A stretch of DNA of 41,756 nucleotides from Campylobacterales bacterium (lineage in GTDB: Bacteria > Campylobacterota > Campylobacteria > Campylobacterales > Hydrogenimonadaceae), in assembly GCA_027081015.1 (NCBI GenBank), contig JALWMA010000090.1:1-41756 (forward strand), given 5' to 3'. A program made the position numbers and the translations under genes. The notes under the pieces were generated by a model. The model saw only the letters and a list, made by a program, of their open reading frames with translations, did not search any database and was not told the origin of the DNA. Every line of letters starts with the position of its first letter. Position 1 is the first letter of the stretch. This document shows, piece by piece, positions 1 to 3,658 of this stretch.

Positions 1-503
1 AGCTTGATGAGCCCGAAGGTCTCGTCGCGCTCCACGACACTCAGACCCTGCCTGGTGACAGACTGCTCCCTTCTAAGACCCGTTATCCAGACCTCCCTCT
101 TTTCGAGTGCGCGCTTGAGCGGCTCTATCTTTCTGACCCTGCAGCACCTCTTTCTATTCTCTATGCTCTCGTAAAATCCGTTTATCCCCTGCTCGAGCAC
201 CAGCCGCTCCACCTCGGTGCGGTCGGGGAAATAGGGCCTTATCTTCGTTTTGTAGAGCTGTTCGGTCCGCTCCCAGACGCTGTAGGTCTCTTCGGGAAGC
301 CTTCCCGTATCGAGCGTGAAAATCTCCGTTTCGGGATCTATGGAGAGGACCATGTGGGTCAGCACCTGGTCTTCGGCCCCGAAACTCGTGGCGAGGACGA
401 TTTTCCCTTTATACTCCCTTAGAAACTCTCTCAAAATAGCTTCTGGAGCGGTGTCGTCGTATAAATTTTCGTATCTTTTTGTCTCTTCTATCGTTGTCTG
501 CAT
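1..503 (-). CDS. cysH: Phosphoadenylyl-/adenylyl-sulfate reductase, partial (3' end outside window)
   Basis: Assimilatory reductase that turns APS or PAPS into sulfite in the cytoplasm, feeding sulfide to cysteine synthesis. The visible 167 residues start MQTTIEETKRYENLY. They hold the nucleotide-binding ATSFGAEDQV segment near residue 38 and the LDTGRLPEET stretch near residue 64, both typical of the family. The ENRKRCCRVRKIEPL segment near residue 115 carries the paired cysteines that ligate a 4Fe-4S cluster in APS-reductase-type members; E. coli PAPS reductase lacks this pair. The matching C-terminal CxxC would lie outside the window, so APS versus PAPS preference is inference. The ATG at 501-503 is preceded by AAAGGAG at good spacing. 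The DUF2061 gene ends 10 bases upstream, so the two are very likely cotranscribed. Confidence 0.93.
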   Translation of the reverse strand, partial: MQTTIEETKRYENLYDDTAPEAILREFLREYKGKIVLATSFGAEDQVLTHMVLSIDPETEIFTLDTGRLPEETYSVWERTEQLYKTKIRPYFPDRTEVERLVLEQGINGFYESIENRKRCCRVRKIEPLKRALEKREVWITGLRREQSVTRQGLSVVERDETFGLIK

Positions 504-513
504 AATACTCCTT

Positions 514-741
514 TCAAATCTGGTATTCCGGCTCTTTCTTTACCCTGCCGAGGGGAATTTTGTTCCAGGCCCGTTCGTGAAGATAGTAGAGAACCATCTT
601 CGTGACCAGTTCGATACTTCCGATCGATGCGGCCATACCCAGGCTCCCCGTAATGATGTAAGATATTATGATCGTATCGAGAGTGCCGAGCGCTCTCCAT
701 GAAACGGTCTTCACTACGCTTCTATACGGCTTCTCATGCAT
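514..741 (-). CDS. DUF2061 small membrane protein
   Basis: A 75-residue protein with two hydrophobic segments, about residues 18-34 and 38-53, and a conserved-looking C-terminal stretch LYYLHERAWNKIPLGR, which fits the DUF2061 family of predicted membrane proteins. The biochemical role is unknown. Members are often found beside assimilatory sulfate reduction genes, and here cysH follows after 10 bases on the same strand. That association, not the sequence, suggests a role in sulfur uptake or reduction. The ATG at 739-741 has AGAGGAAA upstream. A terminator-like hairpin after cysK and a TTGACT hexamer in the gap ahead of this gene suggest a separate transcript from metY-cysK. Confidence 0.85.
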   Translation of the reverse strand: MHEKPYRSVVKTVSWRALGTLDTIIISYIITGSLGMAASIGSIELVTKMVLYYLHERAWNKIPLGRVKKEPEYQI

Positions 742-793
742 GGCATGTTTCCTCTACTAAATAAAGTCTATCGAATTAGTCAAGAATACTCTC

Positions 794-833
794 AAAAAAA
801 ATTCTCTCCGGCGGTCTACTCGTATAGTCCGCC
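794..833 (-). terminator. Hairpin plus T-run at the end of cysK
   Basis: GGCGG (810-814) pairs with CCGCC (829-833), with three further pairs inside after one mismatch. On the minus strand this is followed eight bases later by a run of eight T (plus-strand A at 794-801). The stem overlaps the cysK stop codon. The T-run sits further from the stem than in classic intrinsic terminators, so it may work as a partial terminator between cysK and the DUF2061-cysH unit. Confidence 0.5.
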
Positions 834-1736
834 GCTAAGATAACGCTCGCCCGTGTCGTTGAGCATCGTCACCACCGTCTTGCCCCTGTTCTCCTCCCTG
901 CCGGCGATCGATGCGGCTGCAAATACGTTGGCACCCGAAGAGATTCCTACCAGCAGTCCCTCCTCTTTTGCCAGCTCCCTGGCAGTCGACATCGCAGCTT
1001 CGTCCGACACGGTGTATATTTCGTCATAGATCCCCGTATCGAGGATTTTAGGAACGAAGCCCGCGCCGATCCCCTGGATTTTGTGTGGAGCCGGGCCGCC
1101 TCCTCCGAGAACCGGAGAGTTTTTCGGCTCTACCGCCACTATGCGAATGTCGGGATTGTGCTCTTTGAGCACCTTCCCGACCCCCGTAATCGTACCCCCG
1201 GTACCGACCCCCGCTACGAAAATGTCGACTTTTCCGTCGGTGTCTCTGAGGATTTCGCGTGCCGTAGTCTCTATGTGTATCTGCGGGTTTGCCGGGTTTT
1301 CGAACTGCTGCAAGATTACGGCACTCTCCAGCTCCCCGGCAAGTTCATGCGCCTTCTGCACCGCTCCGGCCATGCCTTTCGCCGGTTCGGTCAGAACCAG
1401 TTCGGCGCCGAGGGCCGCAAGCAGTTTCCGCCTCTCGATGCTCATGGAAGACGGCATCGTGAGGATGAGCCTGATCCCCTTGGCGGCGGCTACCGAAGCG
1501 AGCGCGATGCCCGTGTTGCCGCTGGTGGGCTCTATGAGAACGGTATCTTCGGTTATTCTCCCGCTCTCGATGGCATCTTTTATCATATTCGCGCCTATGC
1601 GGTCCTTTACGGAGCCGGTCGGGTTCATAAACTCGCACTTTCCAAGCACCAAAGCCCCGCATCTGTCGGAAACCTCTCCAAGCTTTACCAGCGGGGTGTT
1701 TCCAATGAGTCCCGTTACATCTTCGGCATAGTTCAT
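816..1736 (-). CDS. cysK: Cysteine synthase A (O-acetylserine sulfhydrylase)
   Basis: PLP enzyme making cysteine from O-acetylserine and sulfide. At 306 aa it has the normal length. Motifs in order: NPTGSVKDR with the PLP lysine at residue 44, [11 protein letters not shown] (the substrate loop), [10 protein letters not shown] (the phosphate-binding loop) and GISSGAN near the C-terminus. The chosen start is the ATG at 1734-1736 (MNYAEDV), preceded by AAAGGAT at five bases. The same frame stays open further upstream but runs into the rrf2 gene. It lies 22 bases after an Rrf2-family regulator whose C-terminal tail resembles CysK-docking peptides, so CysK may also act as a regulatory partner here (inference). 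Confidence 0.97.
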
Positions 1737-1758
1737 GAAATATCCTTTCTTTTTGGCG

Positions 1759-2175
1759 CTATATCGTATAGCAGAGCTGCTTGGAGAGCTTCTGCTCGTA
1801 CAGCCTGAAGTCGTCGAGCGAGATGTCGAATATCTCCTCCAGCTTCTTTTCGGCATCTTTGAAAAAGAGCTCCAGAACGCTGTTTCTGGTGACCGTTTCG
1901 GTTATCCGAAACCCGCCCTCGAGAGACTTCAGGAGTTCTAACACCCTTATCTCCGAAGGGTCCGACGCCAGCATGTACCCTCCGTAGGCCCCCCTTACGC
2001 TTTTGACGAAACCGTCTTTTTTTAGCGTGTTGAGCAGCTGTTCGAGGTAGTTTTGCGGTATCGCCGCCCTTTCGGCGATATCGCGTATCTTTACCGGTTT
2101 TTTGAACTGATACTCTTTCGAGAGCTCATACATGGCCAGCAGGCCGTATGTGCCCTTGGAGGAGAGGAGGGTCAT
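1759..2175 (-). CDS. Rrf2-family transcriptional regulator, possibly CymR-like
   Basis: A 138-residue winged-helix regulator. The N-terminus [19 protein letters not shown] and the [15 protein letters not shown] and [10 protein letters not shown] segments are the standard Rrf2 signature. The region where IscR and NsrR carry three Fe-S cysteines has none here, so it is not a cluster sensor of that kind. Known relatives without cysteines include Bacillus CymR, which represses cysteine genes only in complex with CysK. The protein ends Cys-Tyr-Thr-Ile, and a C-terminal isoleucine after an aromatic-containing tail is what CysE, CdiA toxin and CymR insert into the CysK active site. The gene starts one base after the metY stop and lies 22 bases ahead of cysK, so it is cotranscribed with both. 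Cysteine-responsive control of this operon is inference. Confidence 0.9.
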
Positions 2176-2176
2176 G

Positions 2177-3442
2177 TCAGCTCTCCATCGCCTGTTTTAG
2201 ATCTTCTATGAGATCCTCGTAAGCCTCGAGCCCCACGCTGAGCCTGACAAGGCCAGGCGTGACACCGGTTTTTTTGAGTTCTTCCTCACTTAGCTGCTGA
2301 TGTGTCGTACTCGCCGGATGGGTGATGATCGATTTCGAGTCCCCGATGTTCACGACGACGCTGAAGAGCTTGGTGTTGTCCAGAATCTTTTTCGCATACT
2401 CCAGGTCTCCGACATCGAAGCTCACGAGTCCCGAAGCCATACCGTCCCTGAAGTAGCGATCCACCTTTTCGCGGTTCGCATCGTCTGCAAGGGCGGGGTA
2501 GTTGACCTTGAGAACCTTCGGGTGGCCCTTCAGGAACTCGGCGACCTTAAGCGCGTTTTTGGAGTGCTCCCTGACCCTCACCGCGAGGGTCTCGAGACCC
2601 TGTATATGCAGCCAGGAGTTGAAAGGTGCGGGAGCGGCACCGATGTCGCGAATGAGCGAGAGCCTGATCCTCAGGGTAAAGATCGGAAACGGAAGATCGG
2701 CGTAGACGAGGCCGTGGTAGCTTTCGTCGGGTTCGTTGAAGTGCGGATACTTTGCGTTTCCGATCAGTTTGGAGTTGAGATCTTTGCTCTCCACTATAAG
2801 ACCGCCTATGGCCGTGCCCTGTCCGTTTATATATTTGCTCGCACTGTGTACGACGACATCGACGCCGTGTTCGAGCGGGTTGAATATGACGGGTGTGGCG
2901 ACGGTGTTGTCGCAGATGGTCACTACATTGTAATTCGATGCGATCTCGACGATCCTGTCGACATCGGCAACGCTGATGTGAGGATTCGAGAGCGATTCGA
3001 AAAAGATCGCTTTGGTCTTTTCGTCTATAAGATCTTCGAGGTCCGAAGCGGTGTCGCTGTCGAACACTCTGGCCTCTATGCCGAAGCGTTTTACGGTATG
3101 TGTAAGGAGTGTTGTGGCTCCGCCGTATATCTTTTTTGCGACGATTATGTTGTCGCCCGCTTCGGCGAGGTTCGCTACAGAGTAGAAGATGGCCGCCTGT
3201 CCGCTCGATGTGGCGATCGCCGCAGCGCCCTTTTCGAGTGCCGCGATTCGATTTTCGAGCACCTCGGTCGTCGGGTTGTTGAGCCTGGTATATATGGGCC
3301 CGAGCTCTTTGAGCGCAAAGAGGTTTGCGGCACGCTCCGCGGTCTCGAAGTCGTAGGCTGTCGTCTGGTAGATAGGAACGGCCATGGTTTTGTAGTCGTC
3401 TTTGTCGTAACCGTAGTGTAGTGCGAGTGTCTGTTCTCTCAT
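2177..3442 (-). CDS. metY: O-acetylhomoserine sulfhydrylase
   Basis: Cys/Met-metabolism PLP enzyme of 421 aa. It converts O-acetylhomoserine plus sulfide to homocysteine, the direct sulfhydrylation route to methionine. The PLP lysine is K203 in SASKYINGQGT, which is followed by the family IGG motif, and the GPIYTRLNNPTTEVLE stretch near residue 48 is the conserved substrate and cofactor region. Length and the N-terminal LALHYGYDKDD fit MetY rather than the shorter MetB/MetC (about 380-400 aa). The ATG at 3440-3442 has AAAGGAC upstream. It is first in the metY-rrf2-cysK operon, downstream of a clear promoter. Cystathionine enzymes are the main alternative but less likely. Confidence 0.93.
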   Translation of the reverse strand: MREQTLALHYGYDKDDYKTMAVPIYQTTAYDFETAERAANLFALKELGPIYTRLNNPTTEVLENRIAALEKGAAAIATSSGQAAIFYSVANLAEAGDNIIVAKKIYGGATTLLTHTVKRFGIEARVFDSDTASDLEDLIDEKTKAIFFESLSNPHISVADVDRIVEIASNYNVVTICDNTVATPVIFNPLEHGVDVVVHSASKYINGQGTAIGGLIVESKDLNSKLIGNAKYPHFNEPDESYHGLVYADLPFPIFTLRIRLSLIRDIGAAPAPFNSWLHIQGLETLAVRVREHSKNALKVAEFLKGHPKVLKVNYPALADDANREKVDRYFRDGMASGLVSFDVGDLEYAKKILDNTKLFSVVVNIGDSKSIITHPASTTHQQLSEEELKKTGVTPGLVRLSVGLEAYEDLIEDLKQAMES

Positions 3443-3456
3443 CTTTTCTGTCCTTT

Positions 3457-3480
3457 ACAATTTGTGATTTGTGTAATTGT
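3457..3480. promoter_or_regulatory. Inverted repeat overlapping the metY -10 region, candidate operator
   Basis: ACAATT (3457-3462) and AATTGT (3475-3480) form six-base inverted arms around a 12-base centre containing two TTTGTG-like copies. The right arm overlaps the -10 hexamer of the metY promoter, and the element covers the expected transcription start. This is where a repressor would act. The Rrf2 protein encoded in the same operon is the natural candidate. Only the geometry is seen; binding is inference. Confidence 0.4.
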
Positions 3481-3504
3481 AATGGAAAAAAGAGTTAATG
3501 TCAA
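3476..3504 (-). promoter_or_regulatory. Sigma-70 type promoter of metY-rrf2-cysK
   Basis: On the minus strand TTGACA (3499-3504) and TACAAT (3476-3481) are separated by 17 bases, a near-consensus promoter. The -10 lies about 34 bases ahead of the metY start codon. A TATCGATA palindrome sits at 3508-3515, just upstream of the -35. Confidence 0.8.
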
Positions 3505-3575
3505 GTATATCGATAGAGTTTACGTAGTATTGGTGCCGACAATATGAACCGTCGAGCGGCATATCTGCATCTATC

Positions 3576-3603
3576 TTGATGAAACCTATTGATTTTGTAT
3601 AAT
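3576..3603 (+). promoter_or_regulatory. Promoter-like pair on the plus strand with no gene in front
   Basis: TTGATG (3576-3581) and TATAAT (3598-3603) are 16 bases apart. No plus-strand gene follows. A transcript would cross the hairpin at 3659-3684 and run antisense to the end of the tetraheme cytochrome gene. It could drive a small RNA or be a chance match in an A+T-rich gap. Confidence 0.3.
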
Positions 3604-3658
3604 TATGTTAGTGCCGTTTTAAATATTGAATGTATCGATGAAGATAAAAGAGTGAGAT

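Follow-up and report, generated by a model that had tools for sequence, protein, structure and literature searches.

An Rrf2-Family Regulator with a Predicted CysK-Docking Tail in Sulfur-Assimilation Operons of the Campylobacterota

An Rrf2-family gene that lies between metY and cysK in the window, the complete 41,756-nucleotide stretch of a Campylobacterales contig that was analyzed here, very probably encodes a CymR-like repressor of sulfur assimilation that would use the cysteine synthase CysK as co-repressor and O-acetylserine (OAS) as the competing signal; we infer docking, the OAS effect and DNA binding. A broader reading, which is favored on balance, is that across the Campylobacterota the CysK-docking tail is carried by a transcription factor and not by CysE, and that it provides an OAS-reading CysK co-repressor for the metY-rrf2-cysK-(DUF2061-cysH) operon and, in some genera, for methionine uptake and sulfate reduction, acting via an undescribed operator; the same class of Rrf2 protein would serve cyanobacteria and spirochaetes. 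The phylum is sulfur-centered and includes hydrothermal-vent and organohalide-respiring genera, and the proposal supplies a testable sensor, effector, operator, and regulon. It suggests that control by CysK as an enzyme co-repressor is wider than the Firmicutes and gives a possible reason why the CysE of the Campylobacterota manages without a docking tail of its own. A full-text search of the open-licence literature found no description of a CymR/Rrf2 CysK-docking regulator in Campylobacter, Epsilonproteobacteria, or Sulfurospirillum, which agrees with the statement in an initial sequence-only reading of this DNA that none is known to have been described in the Campylobacterota.

Organization of the metY-rrf2-cysK Operon

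The genes are arranged in the order metY-rrf2-cysK-DUF2061-cysH on the minus strand (table 1), and family scans of metY, rrf2, and cysK bear out the names given in the sequence-only reading. The gap between metY and rrf2 is 1 nt and the gap between rrf2 and cysK is 22 nt (cysK ATG at 1736), all on the same strand. A scan of the minus strand from position 400 to 3650 identified a sole promoter-like match, located upstream of metY, and from this we infer the co-transcription of metY, rrf2, and cysK that the sequence-only reading had assumed, which is well supported. Both metY and cysK adjoin rrf2 in 97 out of 137 distinct relatives that were fetched with their flanks, and the nearest Rrf2 protein from a named genome (91% identical) belongs to a Hydrogenimonas metagenome-assembled genome (MAG), which makes Hydrogenimonas the most likely genus of the window. 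The DUF2061-type gene and cysH were recognized by eye, the latter from its translation, and both labels are putative. The CysH protein of a related genome matches NF002537 with 209 bits in a family scan, and a DUF2061 gene upstream of cysH is also present in Sulfurospirillum-like genomes. The same genome contains a second cysteine synthase A gene (G000:C144:54988-55881, L193) that is unlinked to rrf2.

Table 1. Features of the metY-rrf2-cysK region (positions within the window)
Feature	Position	Strand	Remarks
Promoter and predicted operator ATCGATATACTTGACATTAACTCTTTTTTCCATTACAAT	3476..3514	(-)	Upstream of metY
metY (O-acetylhomoserine/O-acetylserine sulfhydrylase)	2177..3442	(-)	TIGR01326, 564.5 bits; first gene of the operon
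Rrf2-family regulator, 138 aa	1759..2175	(-)	Rrf2 family scan, 93 bits
Predicted CysK-docking tail L-C-Y-T-I and stop	1759..1776	(-)	Consensus [YF]-x-I-COOH
cysK (cysteine synthase A)	816..1736	(-)	TIGR01139, 441.6 bits; proposed co-repressor
DUF2061-type membrane protein, 75 aa	514..741	(-)	3' of cysK, 5' of cysH
cysH (PAPS/APS reductase)	1..503	(-)	Truncated by the window edge

A Conserved C-Terminal Isoleucine on Rrf2

The C-terminus of the Rrf2 protein is SKQLCYTI, and the CYTI ending reported earlier was confirmed, the last codons reading exactly L-C-Y-T-I-stop. Its conservation was assessed in 151 Campylobacterota-type Rrf2 relatives (about 35–91% identical), assembled from relatives in 60 related genomes, from named GTDB genomes that contributed 80 loci, and from additional sampling of 397 Campylobacterota genomes. 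A terminal isoleucine is present in 148 of these 151 proteins, which are distinct sequences and not independent events, many of them coming from close relatives. The residue at position -3 is aromatic in 150 out of 151 (Tyr in 138, Phe in 12), and the remaining tail positions vary widely save for a Leu/Ile preference at -5. Variation of the tail among relatives had been set beforehand as the observation that would speak against docking; when the test was run, isoleucine was found at the end of all 22 relatives aligned from the 60 related genomes (35–91% identical), and both Y136 and I138 were invariant in an alignment of 53 sequences from named genomes. By comparison, the background frequency of terminal isoleucine is 5.1% (32/627) among the other open reading frames of the same loci. 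All three isoleucine codons (ATA, ATT, ATC) and all three stop codons (TAA, TAG, TGA) are used by the tail-bearing relatives, and the constraint therefore acts on the protein. The isoleucine tail of this Rrf2 is beyond chance.

The three exceptions (L061, L154, and L175) form one supported clade within the Sulfurospirillaceae with a longer tail that ends in FGL; this clade still has the operon. The other Rrf2 protein of the genome under study (contig C131) has no tail. Tail-bearing rrf2 genes without cysK co-transcription (L148, L147, L143, L176, L020, L016, and L141) often adjoin a gene for a membrane protein of about 145 amino acids with a CP...VD...R start, presumably DUF4395-like as judged by eye. 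In three tail-bearing Rrf2 proteins (L017, L020, and L021, the first from the genus of the window) a CCxxxC cluster is located in the loop that binds the Fe-S cluster in IscR, and these proteins are possible double sensors of cluster and CysK.

Tails of the same kind are found on other Rrf2 proteins. The CymR sequences of Listeria (3LWF) and Staphylococcus aureus (3T8R) in the PDB both end in YMFYI and the Thermincola potens protein 4CIC ends in YMYYI. The Bacillus subtilis CymR sequence used as a query is free of mismatches to 2Y75 from residue 2 to the end of that chain at residue 128. Within a public plasmid collection, Rrf2 proteins ending in isoleucine are encoded beside cysK or a cysteine synthase gene in Pseudanabaena, Aulosira, and Treponema and were also identified in Nostoc and Peptoclostridium; the cyanobacterial and spirochaete tails beside cysK or cysE read MFYI, MYYI, and EYCI. 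The tail is absent from five Fe-S/IscR-type Rrf2 proteins of the collection, two of which are encoded beside suf or nif genes.

A separate Rrf2 subfamily (L026:1324-1782 and L027:1315-1773; genomes G024 and G042) combines Fe-S-type cysteines with a VGGLGI end similar to CysE and CdiA tails, and its genes adjoin those of ABC-transporter binding proteins, sulfate-like in L026 and cystine-like in L027. This subfamily is possibly an independent CysK-docking regulator. A search of the plasmid collection with the GLGI-tailed Arcobacter-type Rrf2 returned only matches that mostly stop short of the tail.

The predicted fold of the window's Rrf2 (AlphaFold2) is a winged helix with a mean pLDDT of 91, the last residue block being the least confident (69), and helix 120–136 of the model reaches close to the C-terminus. 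This arrangement, together with the tail-bearing paralogues that lie away from cysK, would fit a tail that is kept for Rrf2 dimer packing, for stability, or as a C-terminal degron, unrelated to CysK. However, there is almost no variation in the last residue and in the aromatic residue at -3, in contrast to most of the preceding stretch, the five Fe-S-type proteins do without the tail, and the linkage to cysK is strong. Furthermore, the terminal residues match those of CymR, in which the role of the tail as an anchor is both modeled and genetically supported (PMC11487621). A function unrelated to CysK is thus judged very improbable, and docking to CysK remains the preferred reading of the tail.

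The Proposed Docking Partner and the CysE Tail

A C-terminal isoleucine also docks unrelated proteins, the CdiA-CT toxin of Escherichia coli 536 to CysK and Caenorhabditis elegans EGL-9 to CYSL-1. Among the CysK proteins encoded adjacent to rrf2, the PLP-lysine motif SVKDR and the pocket loop TSGNTG are kept in 105 out of 105. The CysE protein of the genome under study ends in AFIKSIKS, and none of 56 Campylobacterota genomes encodes a CysE with a terminal isoleucine, irrespective of whether rrf2 was found there. The Campylobacterota therefore seem to lack the classical CysE-CysK complex, which would leave the CysK slot free for Rrf2. The complex is reported to be absent from B. subtilis as well (PMC12895370).

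The missing CysE tail also bears on an alternative in which Rrf2 represses the sulfur genes and senses something else, while its tail chiefly inhibits or titrates CysK as a stand-in for the tail of CysE. CysE tails are known to inhibit CysK by occupying its active site (PMC12895370), and since CysE has no such tail in 56 out of 56 genomes, CysK would otherwise be without a protein inhibitor. In B. subtilis, however, which offers a close functional precedent, the mode of action is co-repression (PMC11487621), and a transcription factor is expected to be far scarcer than an enzyme, so that it is unlikely to inhibit the CysK pool strongly. This alternative is considered improbable, and CysK is retained as the proposed co-repressor.

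In one plasmid (Pseudanabaena ABRG53c, L177) CysE and the adjoining Rrf2 both end in isoleucine (GAGI and MFYI) and are encoded beside cysK, making the two tails possible rivals for one CysK slot.

A Predicted Operator Upstream of metY

The promoter upstream of metY scores 11/12 in the promoter scan and 31 bits with the site matrix. It is the only site in the genome at ≤2 mismatches and the only one in the window above 8 bits (site matrix). The element has the consensus ATnrAnnTACTTGACAwT, including a nearly perfect -35 box, followed by a -10 box. It was identified upstream of metY in nearly all distinct rrf2-linked operons, at 97 distinct sites of which a few are weaker fits (e.g., L171 to L173), and was absent from the metY promoters of 30 out of 30 genomes in which rrf2 was not found. 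In 12 Sulfurospirillum-like genomes the element occurs at 31 sites, 25 of which precede metY (12 sites), (DUF2061-)cysH-cysD (8 sites), or metQ-metN (5 sites), and a reversed control pattern gave zero matches in the same genomes. The other six sites precede a gene for what we take to be a LivK-like binding protein; one of the six (G410) was assigned through identity to a fetched site, and one is followed by a presumably metH-like gene, both names being our own reading of the sequences. One CysH and one MetQ protein were confirmed by a family scan.

The element covers the -35 box of the metY promoter, and these sequence patterns predict it to be the operator of this Rrf2. Its near-perfect -35 and -10 boxes would also fit a conserved promoter of high strength and nothing more, or a binding site for another sulfur regulator. 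The similarity of the element to one published CymR site, that of B. subtilis cysK, is likewise at chance level, no better than shuffled sequences (112/300 and 178/300), a comparison with a single site and not with a consensus, which the C. acetobutylicum and S. aureus papers do not spell out in usable form. However, bases beyond the two hexamers are also conserved (A-10 98%, T-9 93%, A-2 93%, C-1 96%, and T7 92%), the element is missing from the genomes without rrf2, and the additional genomic sites mostly lie before sulfur genes. The association between the element and rrf2 could come partly from shared operon history. A promoter or foreign site is rated as rather unlikely, and the assignment as the Rrf2 operator is preferred.

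Two other sequences were considered. Close to the start of metY lies a near-perfect inverted repeat (TTACAATT-N12-AATTGTAA), which was rejected as an operator because it is not conserved within the genus. A candidate second copy of the element (TTGACTAATTCGATAGA), located in the 74-nt gap upstream of the DUF2061 gene, scores far below the site matrix and shows a weak likeness to the metY element (16/500 shuffles).

Relation to CymR and IscR

The best matches to the Rrf2 model among solved structures (Foldseek) are 4CIC and CymR 2Y75 (E = 2e-11 and TM = 0.81 for 2Y75). The protein has no Fe-S cysteine set, its sole cysteine being C135 within the tail. It scores 92.4 bits with the CymR model NF047409 (91.5 bits in a genome search), below the cut-off of 195, and 71 bits with the IscR model TIGR02010 against a cut-off of 207.55; besides the missing cluster cysteines, its neighborhood is cysK/metY and not isc/suf. 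In a phylogenetic tree for which the final eight residues were removed, the Campylobacterota Rrf2 proteins form one supported group (99/96) that includes one MAG labeled Spirochaetes and that adjoins cyanobacterial proteins (90/81), and CymR of the Firmicutes is placed in a separate clade together with IscR-type proteins. The window's Rrf2 is not CymR itself because the family score, the clade, and the CymR-box tests all failed. The best reading is an Rrf2 repressor of a kind that uses CysK as co-repressor and is distinct from the CymR family. Of the CymR-CysK type of sensor proposed in the sequence-only reading, the way of working is supported by the tail, CysE, and the element, but membership in the curated CymR family did not hold.

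Proposed Mechanism

When cysteine is plentiful, CysE would be feedback-inhibited and OAS would be low, allowing the Rrf2 tail to sit in the active site of CysK. Rrf2 and CysK would then hold the operator as a complex and block the promoter of the metY-rrf2-cysK(-DUF2061-cysH) operon. When cysteine is scarce, OAS would build up and drive the tail out of CysK, which would release the operon. In such a cycle CysK would therefore be both a product and the sensor of the operon. Tail entry into CysK, competition by OAS, and binding of the complex to the element are proposed because of the B. subtilis precedent (PMC11487621, PMC3828012), in which the CymR C-terminus is modeled as the CysK anchor and the regulon is derepressed when cysK or cymR is inactivated (PMC11487621), and the CymR-CysK complex is mostly dissociated at high OAS (PMC3828012). 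The FGL clade, the tail-bearing paralogues away from cysK, the CymR score below the cut-off, and an element unlike the CymR site count against the proposal.

Comparison with Known Systems

The CymR-CysK system of B. subtilis and S. aureus (2Y75, 3T8R, and 3LWF) shares with the proposed system an Rrf2 winged helix without an Fe-S cluster, a sulfur regulon (predicted in the present case), an aromatic C-terminal tail with a final isoleucine, and the link to cysK, and B. subtilis likewise lacks the canonical CysE-CysK complex. It differs in that the window's Rrf2 reaches 92 bits versus the required 195, is 30–34% identical in a structural alignment, belongs to a separate clade, and is encoded within the metY/cysK operon, the promoter element of which is unlike the CymR site in sequence. 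IscR, including that of T. potens (4CIC, ending in YMYYI), is the best fold match, but the window's protein has no cluster cysteines and is tied to sulfur assimilation and not to Fe-S assembly. The CysE-CysK complex has in common a C-terminal isoleucine that occupies the CysK active site in an OAS-sensitive manner, whereas here CysE is without the isoleucine and a transcription factor carries the tail instead. The CdiA-CT toxin of E. coli 536 and C. elegans EGL-9 with CYSL-1 share docking of unrelated proteins by a C-terminal isoleucine but are not transcription factors, and the function of the partner is a different one.
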